IMG/VR virus record: IMGVR_UViG_3300034012_001325
Span: 1 to 36,124 of that record
Origin: a virus
Strand: one strand, 5' to 3'
DNA length: 36,124 nucleotides
The notes below the pieces were generated by a model. The model searched no databases and was not told the origin of the DNA. It was given only the letters and a program-made list of their open reading frames with translations. Below are positions 14,842 through 36,124 of this stretch, piece after piece (the first letter of the stretch is position 1; each line of letters opens with the position of its first letter). The position numbers were made by a program, and so were the translations under genes.

Positions 14842-16140
14842 TTATTGCCGCCCCTCCTCAAAAAATCTAGCACACTCCCCCTGAAATCCTAGCAACATCG
14901 ACGCCCCGACCACCCCGTCCCTCTGCTTCCCAATGTCGATGCGCCGCCGGCTCTGATCTAGCTCCGCATCCTCGGTTGGCTTAAGCACCCGCACCCCGTC
15001 CACGTCAACCATTGAGACGGTCAGCACCTGAGTTGCATCCATATTAACCTGGCTGGATTCTCGAGCGTCGCCTTGTTTGTTTAGCTGAGTGATCCCGATC
15101 ACAAGCGCCCCTGTCTCAATGGCCAACAGTCGCAGGGTCCTGCTAACCTCGGCCACCTGTTGCTCTCTAAGCTCATGCGTTGGTCCCGTAACCAATTGCA
15201 GATAATCCACCATTAGCACCCTCAGTCCCTTGGCACTGTGAACCCCTCGAGCAACGGCCATGATGTCTGCTAGGTTGTGGCAATCGTCCCGCAGGACCAG
15301 CGGCCAACGGTAGATCCGTGAAATGCCAAGCTCTACCCTTTCCATTTCATGCTTAAACAGCCCGCCCTGCTTGAGTCGCTTGGTCCCGACTCGTGACTCC
15401 GCCGCCAGCATCCGGTCAACGATTTGCCCGTGCGGCATCTCGAGGGAACAAATCACGCACGCCCCTGGGGCGCCCTCCCGTAGGATGTTGGCAACGATAT
15501 TCAGCGCCAGCATCGTCTTACCCGATCCCGTGGTGCCGCCGATCACCATGAAATCCGAACGCTCGAGCGGCATGGTTTCATCCAGCTCGGCAAATCCGGT
15601 TTTTATAACTGCGGCTTGATCTTTCCCCCGAGTATACACCTCAAGCCTCGACGCGATTTGCTCGCCCCACGTCTTCGACAGCTTAGTGGCGCCAGTGCGC
15701 TGCAACGTCTGAATCTCGGTGCGAGTAGCCTCGAGGATGTCACCGGTCGGCTCTTGCCCTTGCAAACGGTCAAGTGCAAGGATGGAAAGCTGGATCGCTT
15801 TTCTGCGTTGATCCGCGGCCTTCACGGCATCAATCCACGATCCAAGCGCCGCCAAGCTAATCCCCTCGCCGGCCAGTTCCGTAATTCTCGACGGATTAAG
15901 CGTTGGCCACTGAATCTTGAGCCCGGTGACGACGGAAACAAAGTCCGCGGACTGATTTGCTCCGACTCGAGCGATCACAAGTTCCACCAAATCCCTAGCC
16001 AACGGGTCAACGATACAGGAAGGCGAAAAATAGGCTTCTTGGACCTTTGCCGCTGATTCCTGCGGGAAGTTAATGAAACAGCCCGCAATGGCCCTTTCTG
16101 CCTCCGCAGCGTGCGGTAGGCGGATGTCGTTTGAATTCAT
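14842..16140 (-). CDS. Replicative DNA helicase, DnaB type
   Basis: A 432-aa protein. An N-terminal all-helical domain (1-110, LPHAAEAERAIAGCFI) and linker precede a RecA-like motor: Walker A GGTTGSGKTM (201-210), the H1a-type sequence CSLEMPHGQIVDRMLA (231-246), Walker B VLMVDYLQLV (308-317), and a Q-rich H3 region (IGITQLNKQG). These are the signature elements of DnaB/gp4-type 5'-3' helicases, slightly shorter than E. coli DnaB (471 aa). It would unwind the fork after loading by the upstream initiator. Its ATG overlaps the initiator's stop as ATGA. Confidence 0.92.
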   Translation of the reverse strand: MNSNDIRLPHAAEAERAIAGCFINFPQESAAKVQEAYFSPSCIVDPLARDLVELVIARVGANQSADFVSVVTGLKIQWPTLNPSRITELAGEGISLAALGSWIDAVKAADQRRKAIQLSILALDRLQGQEPTGDILEATRTEIQTLQRTGATKLSKTWGEQIASRLEVYTRGKDQAAVIKTGFAELDETMPLERSDFMVIGGTTGSGKTMLALNIVANILREGAPGACVICSLEMPHGQIVDRMLAAESRVGTKRLKQGGLFKHEMERVELGISRIYRWPLVLRDDCHNLADIMAVARGVHSAKGLRVLMVDYLQLVTGPTHELREQQVAEVSRTLRLLAIETGALVIGITQLNKQGDARESSQVNMDATQVLTVSMVDVDGVRVLKPTEDAELDQSRRRIDIGKQRDGVVGASMLLGFQGECARFFEEGRQ

Positions 16141-17003
16141 TTCGCCGCCTTCCTACTCCTAGCCAGCCACGCCCCAAGGAAATTCGGCATCCCGGCTGCG
16201 GTTTTTCGTTTCGCCGGATTTGTCTCGAGCCATACTGCCGCCATCCTGCAGTTATCTCGGATCTCGGACTCTTTGTAAAACGTGCGGAACGTATTCAGCA
16301 ATTGTTCCGACAACTTCCACGTCTCGCCCGTCCGTAGCCTAAATAACAAACCTTGAGCCCATACGCTCGAAAGCGCGTTTCCTTCCCCTCTTCCCCTTGC
16401 ATCCCCTACTCCCTTACCATCCTTATTCTTAAACTCATTCAGCACTGTACACTGTGATACTGTAGTACTGTCTTCTTCTTTAATATTAATACTAGTGACA
16501 AGCTTTGAGTCAAGCTCAAGTTTCTGCAAAGTTTCGACCGACTTCTGACACGCATATTCGGGCGTTTTACTCTGTTGAATGGTAGACGTCTCCGAGATGT
16601 CTAGGAGATGTCTAGGAGATGTCTCCGAGACGTCTCGGACGTTGGGTTGATTTTCAATGGTTTGCGTCGAAGTTCGCGGCAAGTTCGCGTTGCGTTCGCG
16701 ACGGGTTCGTCCGATTTTAAACCTCCGAATCCGCTCGCGCCGGCGCCGTTCCTCTTCTTCCTGCGGATAATAAAGGACCCGCACCAGAAGCCTGCGGACA
16801 TTGAGTAACGGATTCGCCGCAAGTTCCTCCCGGGTTGCGCCGGTCTCCGCAATGGCGTCGCCTAGGTTAAGCGTGCCGCCTGACTCGGCACTAAGTGCCA
16901 GTTTCAGCAATAAAATGTACTGCACCCGCTGCCGGTCAGATGATTCTCTCCACTGACTGGAGGTCAAAGAGGAGTCCAGTATTGAGTTGTGGTTGCTCTG
17001 CAT
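16137..17003 (-). CDS. Replication initiator / helicase loader-like protein carrying origin-like repeats
   Basis: A 288-aa protein. The ATG at 17001-17003 is chosen because it follows the AACACGAC leader motif; a start 12 codons upstream is possible. The N-terminus has a helical domain (WRESSDRQRVQYILLLKLALSAE), then a charged, low-complexity centre (about residues 80-210). The C-terminal domain (LLNTFRTFYKESEIRDNC, then WLETNPAKRKTAAGMPNFLGAWL) resembles the end of phage replication proteins next to DnaB. The centre is DNA-repetitive: two 11-bp-period iteron arrays lie in it, as in lambda gene O. It sits immediately before the helicase, the O-P type arrangement. Function is inferred from context; no catalytic motif is visible. 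Confidence 0.78.
   Translation of the reverse strand: MQSNHNSILDSSLTSSQWRESSDRQRVQYILLLKLALSAESGGTLNLGDAIAETGATREELAANPLLNVRRLLVRVLYYPQEEEERRRRERIRRFKIGRTRRERNANLPRTSTQTIENQPNVRDVSETSPRHLLDISETSTIQQSKTPEYACQKSVETLQKLELDSKLVTSINIKEEDSTTVSQCTVLNEFKNKDGKGVGDARGRGEGNALSSVWAQGLLFRLRTGETWKLSEQLLNTFRTFYKESEIRDNCRMAAVWLETNPAKRKTAAGMPNFLGAWLARSRKAAK
16444..16496 (-). other. ACTGT repeats and AT-rich block, possible DNA unwinding element
   Basis: Four ACTGT copies (16444, 16451, 16459, 16467) spaced 7-8 bases are followed by the AT-rich TTCTTTAATATTAATACTAG (16476-16494). The block lies about 90-140 bp downstream of the iteron arrays within the initiator gene, a spacing resembling the iteron/AT-rich pairing of lambda-type origins. 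It is a candidate site for initial strand opening. Confidence 0.5.
16584..16635 (-). repeat. Iteron array 1: five AGA(C/T)GTCT repeats, 11-bp period
   Basis: AGACGTCT occurs at 16584 and 16628, and AGATGTCT at 16595, 16606 and 16617, all exactly 11 bp apart with 3-bp spacers CCG, AGG, AGG, CCG. The outer copies are perfect palindromes. An 11-bp period is not a multiple of three and places each copy on the same face of the helix, so it is a DNA signal rather than a coding repeat. It falls at about codons 123-140 of the initiator gene. Confidence 0.85.
16672..16709 (-). repeat. Iteron array 2: GTTCGCG repeats, 11-bp period
   Basis: GTTCGCG starts at 16672, 16683 and 16694, and a partial copy GTTCG at 16705, again exactly 11 bp apart; a degenerate GTTTGCG lies at 16660. 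This second array lies 36 bp from array 1 and has the same helical period but a different sequence. Two iteron families with equal spacing side by side suggest two sets of binding sites at a replication origin. Confidence 0.75.
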
Positions 17004-23924: not shown

Positions 23925-25055
23925 TTAATATTTCCTGAGCCACTCAAGGTCGGTGCGTTCCGGTCGTTCAGCATACCACCCGCCCGAGCCGTCGTAGATG
24001 TCGAGAATTTTGCGGAAAACTTCGTTGTACATCCGCCCGACCCGCTCGTTGCTGTAATTTTTCACGGCCCAATCTCGGCAGACTGTTGGCGAGATCCTCC
24101 CCACATTCTTAAGAGCCCAGACCGTATCCTCCATTGTGCGGACTCGATACCCCGTCTCCCCGTGCCGGATCGTTTCAGGAAACACGCCCCAATCGGATGC
24201 AATCACCGGCGCCCCGCTCATCATTGCCTCAACTGCGACGCCGCCGAACGGCTCGATGTATTGCGACAAAATGATCAGCGCCCCGCAGCGGCTCATCAAA
24301 TCCCGGCGTTTCTCTCGGTCGGCGTACCCGACGTACTCGACGTGGTTCATTGACTCCGTATATGGAATGTCCTTAAAATCGCCTTGCCCCGCAACGATAA
24401 GGCGCTTTCCAGCCCGTCTGGTAGCGTCGAGGATAATGTGGAGTCCTTTCCCCTGCGTCATGCGCCCGAGGTAAAGGATCCAATCCTCGCGCTCTAGTTT
24501 GAAACTAAAGTCCTCCGGGTCGAAATGGTTTGGGACCACAAAGGAGTTATAAAACCCCATTTTTGCCTCCCGCACGAATTCCGTGCCGTGAAAAGCATGC
24601 ATCAGCGCGTAGGATTCAAAGATTTTGAACTGTGCAAACGAGTCGCTGTATCCGATTCCGGACTCAACGCAAATTAGATCCGCGTGCGCGTCAGCGATTC
24701 GTTTGTGGCCCCACCCGAACGGTAATAATAGAAAGTCGTTGGGGCGTTTTCGGTGTTGAATTGCCTGCACGGTATTTTCAGCATGCACCTTGAACGCGTG
24801 GTCGTTTTGGTCGTGCTTAAAAAACTCTTTTCGCCAGTTGTAGTCGCCGTACGCCTCGCGCAAAACTTCGTCGTTTGTGACTGTGACGTGCTCTGAGCAA
24901 TCAACTGTCGATCTCTCGTGCCCGTAGTGGATAACGTGATGCCCTAGGCTTTTGAGCATCCCGCAAAGTTTAAAAACTTTTTGAGTAAACGCGCATGCGC
25001 TGTACTGGCTCGACTCGGTGACGGTGTGCGCCAACCCGGGAATGTGGAATCTCAT
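23925..25055 (-). CDS. Glycosyltransferase family 4 (GT-B fold)
   Basis: A 376-aa protein. N-terminal Rossmann half with a sugar-acceptor-like region (TVTESSQYSACAFTQKVFKLC, then LKSLGHHVIHYGHE). The C-terminal half starts near ILYLGRMTQGKGLHIILDA (about 195-213) and contains the donor-binding signature EPFGGVAVEAMMSGAPVIAS (about 272-291), including the E-x7-E core typical of GT4. It would transfer a sugar from a nucleotide donor. Possible targets are host surface glycans or phage DNA or proteins; no hydroxymethylation enzyme was seen, so DNA is less likely. Unusual for a 36-kb phage. Preceded by a 95-bp gap with no SD. Confidence 0.88.
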   Translation of the reverse strand: MRFHIPGLAHTVTESSQYSACAFTQKVFKLCGMLKSLGHHVIHYGHERSTVDCSEHVTVTNDEVLREAYGDYNWRKEFFKHDQNDHAFKVHAENTVQAIQHRKRPNDFLLLPFGWGHKRIADAHADLICVESGIGYSDSFAQFKIFESYALMHAFHGTEFVREAKMGFYNSFVVPNHFDPEDFSFKLEREDWILYLGRMTQGKGLHIILDATRRAGKRLIVAGQGDFKDIPYTESMNHVEYVGYADREKRRDLMSRCGALIILSQYIEPFGGVAVEAMMSGAPVIASDWGVFPETIRHGETGYRVRTMEDTVWALKNVGRISPTVCRDWAVKNYSNERVGRMYNEVFRKILDIYDGSGGWYAERPERTDLEWLRKY

Positions 25056-27954: not shown

Positions 27955-28115
27955 GACTCCTTGCGGAAAATGTTGACCAGACCAATGAGCGCCAATCCTG
28001 CGCTGATAATGGCTTCCTGCAATTCAGGATGCAGTTTAACCCCGACCGCGGTCACCATTGCCAAAATACCGCGCCACGTTGATGGTTCTTTGAGTCGCTC
28101 GAGTAAATAGGTCAT
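27951..28115 (-). CDS. Small holin-like membrane protein
   Basis: A 54-aa protein, ATG 28113-28115 (ATGA overlap upstream, GTGA downstream). It begins [18 protein letters not shown], then two hydrophobic stretches separated by ELQE ([27 protein letters not shown]) and ends KES. This arrangement is common in small phage holins that follow fibre genes. Not captured by longer-ORF thresholds. Confidence 0.75.
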
Positions 28116-29419
28116 ACAAGTTTAGGTCGTTTGATTTCCACCTTTGCCGCTGCGTCAACTGTCTCACTAAAAGTCAGCACCCCGCTGGAAAGCGTGTACG
28201 CCTCGGCGTGTTGGTTCACGCCGTCAATGCTGACGTGGTAAAGCGCCGAAATATCTGCGGTGGTAAATCCGTTGATGGAAATGGTTGTCAGCGCAACCCC
28301 GCTCGATGTTGTAAGGTCCCACGCAAAGGTCGGCGTCGCTACTGGTCCGGTGGCGCCCGTAGCGCCCGTGGCGCCCGTCGCTCCCGCAACGCCCGCAACG
28401 CCCTCAAGGTTCACGATCCAATTTGACCACGTGCCGTTGCCGGTGCGCTGGGAAATATCTGCAACTAAAACTCCGGTCGTTTGATTGTATGAGACAACCA
28501 CCCCGTGCATATGCTCGCCGTTTCCAACGTATGCAATGGTGACGGGTTGCCCGAATGAATAGGAAAGTCCCGCTTGAGTCGTTAGCGTTTTTGTCCCGTT
28601 GCTAACGGTCAACGTGGTGGTCGAAGTCCCGTAATATTTGTCTGCAACGCCAGCCGGACCCGTCGCTCCCGTACTGCCCTGAGGTCCCGATACGGTCGAC
28701 GCTGCCCCCGTGGCGCCCGTCGCTCCTTGTGGCCCCGATACGGTTGATGCGGGTCCTGTAGCGCCCGTGCTGCCTTGGGGTCCCGATACGGTTGAATCCG
28801 CTCCAGTAGCGCCCGTGGCTCCGGCTGAAACTAGCAATTCCCAATTGTACCCCGGAGGCGCTCCCCCAACGGTCCACCCCCCCGTTGCCGGCAACCACCA
28901 AAGCGATCCGAGGTGGGTCACTGCGTCATAAAGCGAATAGGATGCAAAGTTGTCCCATGCACCTCGGTAGTTGTAAGGCATCGGCCCTGTCGCTCCGGTC
29001 GGGCCTGCTACGGTCGACGCTTCGCCAGCTGGCCCCGTGCTGCCCGTGCTCCCGATAACCGACAACCCTGATGCCCCGACGGGGCCTGTCGACCCGCGTG
29101 CGCCCGAGGCGCCCGTCGCTCCAACTTCGCCCTGATTGCCTTGCTGCCCTTGGACGCCTTGAATTCCCTGCTGTCCGGTGGAGCCCTTCTCGCCGCGTTC
29201 GCCCGTGTCTCCTTTAATGGACAACCCGCTTGCGCCCGTTGCTCCCTGCGGACCGGGAACTGTTGACGCTTCTCCGGTGTCGCCTTTAATTGAAAGCCCC
29301 GAAGCGCCGACAGGACCAGTGGCCCCTTGAACGCCCTGAACACCTTGAACGCCTTGCTGCCCTCGCTGGCCTTCAAGGATTTCAACGCAGACCGTTTTGA
29401 GTGATGGCGAGCAACTCAT
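28112..29419 (-). CDS. Collagen-like tail fibre protein 2
   Basis: A 435-aa protein. The N-terminus [17 protein letters not shown] resembles that of the larger fibre (Cys residues, then V-EIL-G). Gly-X-Y repeats ([10 protein letters not shown] type) run over about residues 18-148. A Trp-rich segment ([27 protein letters not shown], about 152-185) resembles CBM5/12-like carbohydrate-binding modules. A second Gly-X-Y block runs to about 258. A beta module (about 260-345) is shared with the larger fibre, and a C-terminal beta tip follows. Collagen-like triple-helical rods with receptor-binding tips are known in phages. It overlaps the small 57-aa gene and the holin-like gene by ATGA. Confidence 0.88.
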
Positions 29420-29589
29420 TCAACTGGTGCGGTAAAGGTGCCTTCTGCGTAGGTCCAATCTGGACCTGCTACTGTATCGCCGAGTGCAATTAAATCAAAG
29501 CCGTTTGGGACTGGAAAATAGGCTTCCCCGTCCCAGATGATGACGTTATCAACGCGGCCAGTTGCGGTTTCAATGAGTGCGTAGCGCAT
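29416..29589 (-). CDS. Small tail-fibre accessory protein
   Basis: A 57-aa protein from ATG 29587-29589. It begins [21 protein letters not shown], with [16 protein letters not shown] and [11 protein letters not shown] at the end. This is a recurrent small phage domain (start 'M-YA-I----V-NVI-WDG', then 'P-G--LV-L-D---GW-Y--G-F') found next to fibre genes, sometimes within tail-fibre assembly proteins. It ends in an ATGA overlap with the collagen-like gene. Too short for many gene callers. Confidence 0.75.
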
Positions 29590-29590
29590 A

Positions 29591-30538
29591 TTAAAAATAG
29601 GTTGTGATGATTATAATGCCTGCTGCGCCGTTCCCGCCGTTACCTCCGCTGCCGCTGCCCTGAGTTGCTCCTCCGCCGCCACCACCGCATCCATTAATAG
29701 TTCCATTCCCGCCATTGCCGCCACTTCCGGTTGAAAATGTTGATGCCCCGCCGCCACCGCCGCCGGATCCAGTAAATAGCGCGGATGGAATGCCTGTTTT
29801 TAAACTTCCGTTGTTGCCATTCCCCCCGTTAGCTGTGGTTGATAATGCTCCGCCTGATCCTCCATTAAGTCCAAATGGAACATTAGCCCCGCCAAGCGCC
29901 CCCGCAAAAGGAGCTGACGTTGAACATCCTCCGCCGCCACCTCCAGACGCTGGTCCCCGATTACTTCCTGACGCACCGCTTGCCGTGGTTGTAATATTAG
30001 ACGCGCCGCCCGCGTTCGTGCCATACGTTCCGGACGTTCCTCCTGATCCTGCTGTTGTAGTTCCAGTGCCTCCTGCGCTACCTCCCGATGCGCGAGCAAT
30101 AATTCCTTGCGTTGCGCCCGTAACGGTTGCTGTTCCTCCTGCCGTTGCTGCTGTGCCCCCAAAAATTCCGCCATTTCCTCCCGCTGCAATCGCAATTGTA
30201 TAGCTTGCGTCTGCCAAATTTGCCGCGGCATAACTAATCGAGGTATATCCGCCACCGCCGGCACCGCCGCCTCCAAAAATTGCAGTTCCCGCCGCCGCTT
30301 TGCCTCCAGCTCCACCCCCACCTCCGCCTCCAACGACGTCAAAAACCACAAGCGTTGCTCCTGCGGGTTTTGTCCAAGTCCCAGCACTCGTAAAAATTTG
30401 TTGGTTTGGACTTGCGCCCCCAAACGGTCCAGGCGCTGCGGTAGCCCGTCCTGCGGCATCAAAGGTCACGCCTCCATAGGTTCCGGCGGTCAACCCGGTT
30501 GTTTGCATCATCCCGCTTGAAACTTTGGTCAGTGGCAT
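29591..30538 (-). CDS. Glycine-rich tail fibre/adhesin
   Basis: A 315-aa protein. The N-terminal part (MPLTKVSSGMMQTTG, FDAAGRAT, then QIFTSAGTWTKPAGATLVVFDVVG, residues about 1-70) has a characteristic opening seen before glycine-rich fibre domains. Residues about 70-310 are dominated by Gly (many runs of 3-7) with Ala/Ser/Thr/Asn. Such glycine-rich sheets form polyglycine-II lattices in phage adhesins like gp38 of phage S16. Likely a receptor-binding tip or head-fibre. Its repetitive DNA produces long shadow frames on the other strand. Confidence 0.85.
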   Translation of the reverse strand: MPLTKVSSGMMQTTGLTAGTYGGVTFDAAGRATAAPGPFGGASPNQQIFTSAGTWTKPAGATLVVFDVVGGGGGGGAGGKAAAGTAIFGGGGAGGGGYTSISYAAANLADASYTIAIAAGGNGGIFGGTAATAGGTATVTGATQGIIARASGGSAGGTGTTTAGSGGTSGTYGTNAGGASNITTTASGASGSNRGPASGGGGGGCSTSAPFAGALGGANVPFGLNGGSGGALSTTANGGNGNNGSLKTGIPSALFTGSGGGGGGASTFSTGSGGNGGNGTINGCGGGGGGATQGSGSGGNGGNGAAGIIIITTYF

Positions 30539-30560
30539 ATTTTAAAAGGTTGGTGTCAAA

Positions 30561-31724
30561 TTACTGAACGTAGACGTATTGCTGAACCGGCGTGTACGTT
30601 CGATCTTTGGAAATCGACAAGCGCCCGCCGTTTTCGTTGAAAAAAATACACGAACCAATGCGATTACCAGTGATTCCAGACCCAAGCAAAGCCCAAGACG
30701 TACCGTTCCGCTTGTAAACTTCAACTATCCTGTCGCTTCCGTTTGTGCTCTTTACAGTAACAAATTTTGTCCCGTCTTCAGATAGCAGTTGTCCGTTTGG
30801 AAACATGTATTCACCGTGCAAGTGAAAAATGTTGAAAGTGATAGCGTTCCCAAATTGCTGCCAAGTGTTGTTTGTTAATTCATACGTCGAGTAACGCATT
30901 TGATACGTTGCCCCGCTGCTTGTGCTTGAAATTAAAATTTGCCTAATAATTAACAAAACGGTCCCGTTGGCGTTTAAAAACATTTTAATGATTCCGCCAG
31001 TGTCTGACCCTATAAAATAAGCAGTTTGGACAAAAGGGTCAGCAAGGTTTCCAGTATATTTGTAAATTGCGCAAAACGCTCCCCCAGACGTTGCAAGAGT
31101 GTCTCCGTCTCCGCTATATGCAATTTCAATGTCGGATCCTAAACTAATGTTATTTTGCGTATCTTTGCCTTCGGTTCTTAAAATGTACCATGTCTCGTTG
31201 ATTTTTTTAAAAAATGTAGTCACTGCAGCGTCGTTTCCAAGCCAGTTCAGCAAATACATAAGAACAGCCGCTGTGCCGCCAGAAGACGAGCTGAAATAAT
31301 TTCTTCTGGGTGCGCCGCTTTGCGGAGTAAGTCGCCCTTGAAAAGAAAAAGATTGCTCAACTTCCCAGTTTCCAGCTTGGTTAAGCTGCAAAAATTCCGC
31401 AATGCCATCGTAACTTCCCCCGCCGGGCCCTGTTACAAAATTTTCAGTAAAAAGATTGATCGAAAATTTTCCGTCAAAAGTGAGTCCGTTTACATCCACC
31501 CAAGTGTTCAAGGTGTTAACATAAACGCCGTTGGCTAGAGTCCACTTGTACCCGCCCTCATAAACAATTGAGTTGTCTTCTGAAACCCAAAGTGTTTTCC
31601 CGTCGTTCATTCCGTCGGGAAACGTCTTTACTAATTCCCAGTAGTTAGGGTTGTTGATGCCCGTAATTGGCGGCGTGTAAAAAGGGCGGCTGGCTGCGCT
31701 CGAGAATGTTCGAAAAATCGACAT
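30561..31724 (-). CDS. Repeat-rich tail fibre protein, probable beta-propeller
   Basis: A 387-aa protein. It contains repeats of the type 'LSEDGTKFVTVK...RIVEVYKRNGTSWALLGSGI', 'NNTWQQFGNAITF' and 'NANGTVLLIIRQ', that is, a W-x-x-(L/F)G-(N/S)-I strand plus 'DG(T/N)' turns, resembling FG-GAP or WD-like blades. The N-terminal part (ITGINNPNYWELVKTFPDG) starts immediately after the large fibre (TGATG overlap). No collagen segment. Probably an adhesin or head-proximal fibre element; blade count not determined. Confidence 0.7.
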   Translation of the reverse strand: MSIFRTFSSAASRPFYTPPITGINNPNYWELVKTFPDGMNDGKTLWVSEDNSIVYEGGYKWTLANGVYVNTLNTWVDVNGLTFDGKFSINLFTENFVTGPGGGSYDGIAEFLQLNQAGNWEVEQSFSFQGRLTPQSGAPRRNYFSSSSGGTAAVLMYLLNWLGNDAAVTTFFKKINETWYILRTEGKDTQNNISLGSDIEIAYSGDGDTLATSGGAFCAIYKYTGNLADPFVQTAYFIGSDTGGIIKMFLNANGTVLLIIRQILISSTSSGATYQMRYSTYELTNNTWQQFGNAITFNIFHLHGEYMFPNGQLLSEDGTKFVTVKSTNGSDRIVEVYKRNGTSWALLGSGITGNRIGSCIFFNENGGRLSISKDRTYTPVQQYVYVQ

Positions 31725-34363
31725 CAGATGAAGCGAGTAATATTTGCGAGCACAGTGTACGCGGCTGAACCTGTTTTAATGACGGTATACGTCCAAGCCT
31801 CGATGCAATTTGGAGAACCTGAAACCGTAAGGTTGCCAGCTAAAAATTTAGGCAAAACCGAAACGCCATCAATAGTTAAAGCTGTTGCTTTATATCCGGT
31901 TGCTCCGTTTGTGTTTAAAAAGGTGACCGTGACGGATTCTCCGGTGTTTAAAATAGAGTTTAAAGACTCTGTTTCAGAAGATTGTAAATTGAGCGTCCAG
32001 TTGCTTGTCGCTGCAAGCGTGTAGTATAACGTGGCTTGGTTGCTGACGTTAAATTGTACAGTTGAGGCCGCCGCGGTAGGTTGAATATTGACCTGTTCCC
32101 GTAAAAACGTAAACGCGTTTAACGCTCCGGCCGGTCCGATTGGACCTCGTTCGCCAAAGATTGCTCGGACTTGAATTGTGGATCCTGCCGCCGGTGGCGC
32201 TGTAAACACTATTTGCCCGCCGTTAGACGAGTTGACCGTGTAGGCTGTGGCGCCTTGATAAGTGGCGTTTTGAACCACCCCGTTGATAGTGACAATATAG
32301 GCCGCGTCGTTTGTAAATGTCCCAATGCCGTTAAACTCAGTTTCTGCGCCTGTGCCGGTAAATTCAATAACGGTTGAAAGCCCGGGCGAGACAACTCCGC
32401 TTGCGCCGGTTGCGCCGATGCCTGTTGCGCCTTGCGGCCCCGTAGCGCCCGTCGATCCCTGAACGCCCGAACTGCCAGTCGCGCCAGTTTTTGAGTATAG
32501 CGACCAATTGAGCGCTGTAGTCCCAAGGTTGATGTTGCCCGCGGTGGTTAAATACCAGCTTGATCCGCCGTTAATTGTACCGTTTGAAATTGAAACAGCG
32601 TCGCCCGTTTTTATTTTGGTGTTGGTGTTGCTATCTCCTCGACGATCTAAGTGCCAAGGAGTGGACGCCGATCCTGCCGAGATTACAACATAGATGCCAT
32701 TGTTTGTTGCAAGCGTTTGATCTTTGATTAGCAACTCGTCGTCATCGTTTAAAGTAATTCCATCAACGACAAGTGTTCCGTTGGCAGACGCAATAAGCGA
32801 TTGATGGTTGTTGTCGGCAGTGCCTGCAAGATTTGCTGTTGTCGCAACGCGAACCGGAGTTTTGATGTTGATGCCCGCGCCGGGTTCTCCGCTTGGTCCT
32901 GTAGCGCCCGTCGCGCCCGGGATGATTGATTGCGGCCCCGTTGCGCCGGTAAATGATAAACCCGTTGCGCCAACTTCACCACTCGGTCCGGTTGCGCCCG
33001 TGGCCCCGGGAACGGTTGAAACGGGACCGGTGGCGCCCGTACCCCCGACTGGTCCTGACACTGTTGACGCTTCGCCGGTTGCGCCCTGAATTCCCGTGGC
33101 GCCCGTAGCGCCCTGCACTCCTGCCAGTCCATTGAGATTTATTTGCCAATCGCTGTAGGTTCCGCTGCCCGAAATTGCATCGACTATGACGGTTATTGCT
33201 CCGGTTGACGGATTGTAACTCGCCACAAATCCAGTCATTTTTGCTCCGCTGGATTGATTTGCGATGATGATTGGCTGTTGAGTTGTCCAGGATAAACCAG
33301 TTTGTACGGTGAAACTTTTTTCACCAATCGAGACGTTGATGTTTGTAGTCGATGCAGTTTGGTAGCGATCGCTTTGGCCGGGTTGCCCGGTAGCACCCGT
33401 CGCGCCGCTTGCGCCAATAACAGATATACCGTTTTGTCCTGCCGGTCCTGTGCTTCCTGTGGCGCCAACGATTGATTGTCCTGGTTGACCCGTGGCGCCC
33501 GTGCTGCCGCGTGCTCCGGTTGCGCCCGTAAACGCTGCGCCGGTTGCGCCTGTGCTCCCAATAACGGATTGCCCTGCCGGCCCTGTAGCGCCTGTCGCTC
33601 CGCGGCTTCCGGTGGCTCCGGTAAAAGCTGCGCCTGTTGCCCCAGTGTCTCCAATACCGGAAAGCCCACTTGCGCCCGATGGCCCCTGTAATCCCGTGTT
33701 GCCGCGAGGTCCAATTGTTCCGGATGCGCCCGTGGCGCCAACAATAGAAAGCCCGCTTGCGCCTGTAGCGCCTGCGACGCCCGTGTCTCCGCGCTCCCCT
33801 TGCAGTCCCGAACTGCCAGTTGCGCCAGCTCCTGATGGCCCTGTGGCTCCGCGGACGCCCGTGTCCCCGCGCTCGCCTTGTAATCCTCGAGGTCCGCTTG
33901 GCCCAGTGATCGATTGCCCAGCAGGGCCGGCGATGCCGGTGTTGCCGCGTTCGCCGGTGTCGCCCTTGCTGCCTGGAATGCCCGATGGCCCAGTCACCGA
34001 TTGACCGGATGGCCCCTCAACTCCGGTGTCGCCGCGTTCTCCGCGTTCTCCGGCTAACCCGCGAGGCCCAGATGCGCCTGTGGCGCCGACAATAGATTGG
34101 CCGGCTTCTCCGGTGCTTCCTTGTTCTCCGCGTTCGCCGGTGGCCCCGACAGATCCAATGCCTGACTCGCCCTGCGGTCCCGTGGCCCCCGTATTCCCTC
34201 GAGGTCCTGAAATTGTGGAAGGCAGTCCGGATGGTCCTTGTGCGCCGCTTGGCCCTGTTGCCCCTTGAATTCCCTGCGGTCCACCGAAAGCTCCAGGCGC
34301 CCCTGCTAGGATCTCAAGGACGATGATTTCCTGCTCGCTGTTGCAGTTGTTGCAGTCGCTCAT
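31724..34363 (-). CDS. Large collagen-like tail fibre protein 1
   Basis: An 879-aa protein, the largest gene. N-terminus [21 protein letters not shown] with two cysteines (residues 4 and 7), then Gly-X-Y repeats from about 21 to 330. A beta module (about 331-413) is shared with the 435-aa fibre. A second Gly-X-Y stretch reaches about 495, and a beta domain runs about 496-626 ([29 protein letters not shown]). A short Gly-X-Y block is followed by a common fibre domain (about 663-743; [23 protein letters not shown]) and a C-terminal beta domain of about 135 residues. It is likely the main receptor-binding fibre. Couples to both neighbours (ATGA and TGATG). Confidence 0.9.
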
Positions 34364-35986: not shown

Positions 35987-36124
35987 TAAATTTCTTCGCC
36001 TCCGTCTGTTCCTCCGTCTGTTCCTCCGTCTGTTCCTCCGTCTGTTCCTCCGCCTCCGCTCCCGCCTCCGTTTTGTTCCGAGTCTAAATTGTTATACGCT
36101 GCTTCTAGTTCGGCAAGCTCGTCT
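35980..36124. repeat. Terminal redundancy of the contig, right copy
   Basis: A second copy of bases 1-157 with one 12-bp unit fewer. It includes the C-terminal end of the gene at 7-954 on the minus strand. This part should not be counted twice in a circular map. Confidence 0.9.
35986..36124 (-). CDS. Partial duplicate of the distal tail gene (contig-end copy)
   Basis: The last 46 or so codons of the gene annotated at 7-954, cut off by the end of the contig. It encodes four TDGG repeats instead of five. It is not a separate gene; it documents a repeat-number variant of the same locus. Confidence 0.85.
   Translation of the reverse strand, partial: DELAELEAAYNNLDSEQNGGGSGGGGTDGGTDGGTDGGTDGGEEI

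Follow-up and report, generated by a model that had tools for sequence, protein, structure and literature searches.

Genome context and replication genes

The window is the whole stretch of DNA analysed, 36,124 bp of the virus record IMGVR_UViG_3300034012_001325. Because the ends of the record overlap by about 150 bp, the genome is probably circular, with a length of about 36.0 kb. Among named phages, its terminase is nearest to that of Verrucomicrobia phage P8625 (23.6% identity), a weak pointer to a host in Verrucomicrobiota. The overlapping ends carry a 12-bp repeat, (CCTCCGTCTGTT)n, in 5.5 copies at 20-85 and 4.5 copies at 35999-36052, so that either the protein ending there (7-954, with a GGTDGGTDGG tail) or the assembly varies in length. 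The genome also encodes two long tail-region proteins with collagen-like Gly-X-Y sequence, 435 and 879 aa in length (28112-34363), and a glycosyltransferase (23925-25055; Glycos_transf_1, E 1.8e-20).

A replisome-organizer-like initiator gene, an ORF of 288 aa, lies on the minus strand at 16137-17003. Directly downstream, and overlapping it, is a gene for a DnaB-type replicative helicase on the same strand (14842-16140; phrog_19, E 3.3e-51; DnaB_C, E 2.7e-44). Scans of the 288-aa initiator against Pfam, PHROG, and NCBIfam gave no family above cut-off, the lambda O family models included. Its C-terminal domain, likely the helicase partner, matches those of two other phage initiators, L124 (E 5e-8) and L072 (E 5e-5). 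The N-terminal region matches no family and could not be aligned with the other initiators that have arrays of the kind described below. The AF2 model of the protein was poor (mean pLDDT 51), and a Foldseek search of it against PDB gave no significant match.

Repeat arrays and flanking elements in the initiator gene

On the coding strand, read 5' to 3', the middle of the initiator gene contains array A, a small dyad, array B, an AT-rich block, and a purine-rich tract. Array A (16668-16711, minus strand) consists of four GAAC units at 11-bp steps, one GACGAAC and three CGCGAAC, which read GACGAACCCGT, CGCGAACGCAA, CGCGAACTTGC, and CGCGAACTTCG from 16711 to 16668. An earlier, sequence-only reading had described three and a half copies of GTTCGCG here; that array exists and is the opposite strand of these units. 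The dyad at 16646-16658 is ATTGAAAATCAAC in the window and GTTGAAAATCAAC in its relatives. Array B (16581-16635, minus strand) lies about 370 nt past the initiator start codon and comprises five 11-bp units with the palindromic core AGAYRTCT, which read AGACGTCTCGG, AGACATCTCCT, AGACATCTCCT, AGACATCTCGG, and AGACGTCTACC from 16635 to 16581. The five AGA(C/T)GTCT copies first noticed at 16584-16635 were found there as AGA(C/T)(A/G)TCT, with core starts at 16584, 16595, 16606, 16617, and 16628; the 36-kb record holds these five AGAYRTCT sites and none elsewhere. Measured between their centres, arrays A and B lie about 65.5 bp from each other, or nearly 6 x 11.

The AT-rich block (16444-16499, minus strand; 69% AT) carries conserved ACAGT repeats and is a candidate DNA unwinding element. 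Its presence had also been pointed out before, and the wider stretch at 16441-16520 is indeed 67% AT, but this is a local maximum only: at a scale of 60 bp, AT content peaks elsewhere in the genome, reaching 77% near 18.8 kb. The purine-rich tract (16374-16421, minus strand) is 85% A+G on the coding strand and is conserved in the relatives. A G-quadruplex in this tract was considered and rejected: four G-runs are present in the window and in the relative L001 but are lost in the relative L021.

Chains of four GAAC units are expected about 1e-6 times on one strand of this genome. Periodicity was assessed over periods 5-39 by 5000 synonymous codon shuffles in which the protein and the codon usage were held fixed. 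The 11-bp periodicity of array B was reached in 0 of 5000 shuffles, both in the window gene and in each of two relatives, and that of the array A region in 10 of 5000 in the window and in 3 and 33 of 5000 in the relatives. The periods that stood out were 11 and its multiples 22 and 33, with no others.

Conservation in relatives

Two relatives of the initiator were found on virus contigs, at 75% (L001/L009) and 66% (L021/L034) protein identity; they are few and lie on contig fragments, and deeper searches returned no further initiators. The three genes have the same length, 864 nt excluding the stop codon, and align without any indel. Both arrays are intact in unit number and spacing, and all 12 array A units of the three phages retain GAAC. 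Array A and the N-terminal region are nearly constant between the relatives, unlike array B, whose units drift from AGAYRTCT followed by C (window and L001) to ASWCGTCT followed by T in all five L021 units. Full replacement of the array B motif in L021 was ruled out, as A at position 1, C at position 4, and RTCT at positions 5-8 are conserved in 15/15 units of the three phages; what changed is some of the left half, along with the flanks. The peptide encoded by array B changes from VRDVSETSPRHLLDISETST to NQDVLNTSSTRLEHVLKTSS while the DNA units persist.

Silent sites were compared at residues identical between the window and L001. Codons were identical at 64/71 such residues in the arrays, AT block, and purine tract, versus 260/492 elsewhere (p=3e-10), where the comparison group of 492 comprises the N-terminal part, the C-terminal part, and the helicase, and one variable 66-nt stretch is excluded. 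The same comparison with L021 gave p=2e-5. The sequence-only reading had held that selection is on the DNA, and a test set beforehand bears this out: in the relatives, the step of 11 bp is retained over a peptide whose residues differ. With the spacing retained and the silent sites frozen, selection acts on the DNA across the arrays, the AT block, and the purine tract.

Distribution of GAAC arrays

The pattern CGCGAAC x3 at 11 bp was present in 18 virus contigs, in about 14 of them inside initiator-type ORFs as judged from translations, whereas the reversed-motif control was present in 8 contigs, once in an initiator-type ORF. The contig counts alone are weak (18 versus 8), and it is the location inside initiators that separates the motif from its reversed control. 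About 700 bacterial genomes from two phyla gave no match to CGCGAAC x3, a sample too small for a claim about hosts.

The looser pattern GAAC x5 at 11 bp was found in at least 120 virus contigs. Among the matches listed, 58/80 loci have the array in an ORF of 150 aa or longer, in coding-strand orientation and with a median start at 350 nt; the argument for this class is position and strand within ORFs, and a few of the 58 may be non-initiators. The N-termini of the GAAC-array proteins are of the WIKLHRK type in many cases and different in others. In L071-L150 and L055-L068, GAAC units at exact 11-bp steps lie inside phage initiator-type genes, mostly five per array and in phages whose N-terminal domains differ; many have in common units of the TGAACAACAAA type that end in GAACACAAACAAGAA or something close to it.

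Three different N-terminal sequences used as queries led to 15 initiators of cultured phages. Ten of these have an array within the gene, of period 11 or 12, that no more than 4% of synonymous shuffles reached, and none of 27 control genes passed (closest 5.8%). The period is 12, not 11, in the actinophage initiators L065, L066, and L067 (Gordonia phages William and Ailee; Mycobacterium phage WillSterrel). GAAC arrays with the 11-bp step recur at a common position in the initiator-type genes of many phages, including cultured ones. As judged by motif, spacing, and position, array A belongs to a widespread phage iteron type, and array B alone is unusual. No description of the GAAC 11-bp class was found in titles and abstracts; most older phage-origin papers lie beyond that search, and an earlier description is possible.

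Rarity of a second iteron family

A second 11-bp array, defined as neither GAAC nor a plain purine run, was sought in 70 GAAC-array ORFs, three of them from the window clade, the sample being selected for GAAC arrays with redundancy included. Six of the 70 scored at least 28 of 33, namely the three of the window clade, L026, L040, and L132. In L040 and L132, one base of the core is all that sets the second array apart from the first, which leaves a truly different second family in the window clade and in one unrelated phage (L026). The earlier remark that a two-family array is not the standard layout agrees with this count, and a second array of different motif beside a GAAC array is rare among such ORFs.

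AGAYRTCT x3 was also tried as an initiator motif beyond the window clade and discarded, as its matches in genomes and viruses were scattered and no other initiator-type gene was recognised among them. Separately, AGAYRTCT units at 11-bp steps, in 5 to 9 copies and without a long ORF, occur in three bacterial records: L011 2709-2804 (Eremiobacterota), L013 1457-1508 (Mycoplasma haemofelis), and L019 2668-2719 (Bacteroidetes).

Interpretation as a probable replication origin

The array region is very probably the phage replication origin. This reading draws on lambda and SPP1, whose initiator genes contain repeats together with AT-rich DNA. The likeness to a lambda-type layout proposed from the first reading holds up, as iterons and AT-rich DNA lie within the initiator gene and the helicase gene adjoins it. 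The best explanation as a whole, to which we assign a probability of roughly 0.8, is an origin within the initiator gene at which the initiator would bind iterons, AT-rich DNA would open, and helicase would be delivered.

Binding, melting, helicase loading, and the reader of array B are inferred from the layout as follows. The origin would sit where the gene codes for the linker that joins the N-terminal region to the C-terminal one. The spacing of a single unit every 11 bp suggests that the initiator binds GAAC units head to tail and that the bound molecules line up in a row on one face of the double helix. Arrays A and B plausibly share the same helical face, given the distance between their centres and the absence of any indel between them in the relatives. 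Array B would lengthen the initiator row by five sites, its reader being the same initiator as first choice or else a second protein. The loaded complex could then open the downstream AT-rich block, and the C-terminal domain could hand the DnaB helicase, the product of the next gene, to the opened DNA. The points against the origin reading are the modest AT-rich block, the unalignable N-terminal region, the poor fold model, and the lack of an origin signal in GC skew; the last of these had been proposed as a check and proved uninformative because the genes lie nearly all on one strand.

Which protein reads array B is the point at which the evidence divides. The common period and register favour the same protein for both arrays, with the initiator as first candidate, while a second reader is favoured by the different motif and by the faster drift of array B, next to which the N-terminal region hardly varies. 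It is possible, though less probable, that array B is bound by a second protein of host or phage, in which case the origin would need two factors or one of them would repress or time initiation. The array B motif is unrelated to GAAC and palindromic in the window and L001, and its divergence between relatives fits such a protein; no candidate second factor was found, however, and an array that shares the 11-bp step and near register of array A is most simply explained by one reader. A more specific and more doubtful proposal is an origin of two specificities, in which the conserved N-terminal region would read GAAC, a second factor or surface would read AGAYRTCT in register, firing would need both, and array B might change between relatives, for example following the host.

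That array B is an operator for the initiator or for a repressor controlling the initiator gene, apart from any origin, is very unlikely: palindromic 8-bp cores would fit a dimeric repressor, but the array lies mid-gene, the same silent-site constraint extends past it over the AT-rich block and the purine tract, and arrays recur at this place in the initiator genes of many phages. Still less credible is a parC-like partition site. The parC site of plasmid R1 has clusters of 11-bp repeats, and the repeat length and two clusters seen here fit; against it, ParM, ParR, ParA, and ParB were absent among the proteins scanned, which are part of the gene set, and the arrays lie inside an initiator gene with a helicase gene adjoining. 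Neutral, slippage-made tandem repeats in a disordered linker can hardly be the explanation either, for although tandem repeats do arise in linkers and the L021 units changed in concert, spacing and unit number are exact over 25-34% protein divergence with no indel, silent sites are frozen, and the same GAAC pattern recurs in many unrelated initiators.

Searching for GAAC units repeated every 11 bp in coding-strand orientation, past the N-terminal region, is a simple rule that picks out candidate origins in many phages whose initiators show little or no detectable similarity at the N terminus. The origins and initiators of uncultured phages could therefore be located from sequence alone. The rare second array offers a test case between one initiator with two iteron codes and origins needing two factors.

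Comparison with known systems

In lambda and Stx phages, iterons lie in the middle of gene O with an AT-rich region beside them (PMC7466680), and in SPP1, oriL has direct repeats and an AT-rich region within gene 38, which encodes the origin-binding protein gp38 (PMC6316719). In both lambda and SPP1, helicase loading follows from the binding of the initiator (PMC7466680, PMC6316719). The window resembles lambda in its mid-gene iterons and adjacent AT-rich DNA, and differs in that lambda has one family of longer inverted-repeat iterons (four, or six in Stx phages) where the window has two 11-bp families. SPP1 is likened to it by layout, not by repeat sequence, with repeats and AT-rich DNA inside the initiator gene; its helicase loader gp39 has no identified counterpart in the window.

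Closer in the repeats themselves are the initiators L124 and L072 and those of Pseudomonas phages KLEP17-4 and Orisa03 and Gordonia phage Tardus, which have coding-strand GAAC at 11 bp past the N-terminal region; L124 and L072 in addition match the window initiator in the C-terminal domain. All five are without a second, different array, and their N-terminal regions are not alignable with that of the window. The unrelated phage with a second family, L026 (IMG/VR 3300033076_001062), has, within an initiator-type ORF, CGCGAAC units followed by an 11-bp-step array of CACATACCGAC x3 and one variant unit; its protein is unrelated, its second motif is another one, its arrays follow without a gap, and the ORF is incomplete, with the array at the end of the contig stretch. 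The window has the tandem iterons in an initiator gene, the AT-rich element beside them, and the adjacent helicase gene of the lambda and SPP1 kind, together with the run of at least four coding-strand GAAC units at 11 bp past the N-terminal region (16668-16711) that marks the GAAC-array class. On this layout, the locus is best described as a putative lambda/SPP1-style origin with an unusual second iteron family.
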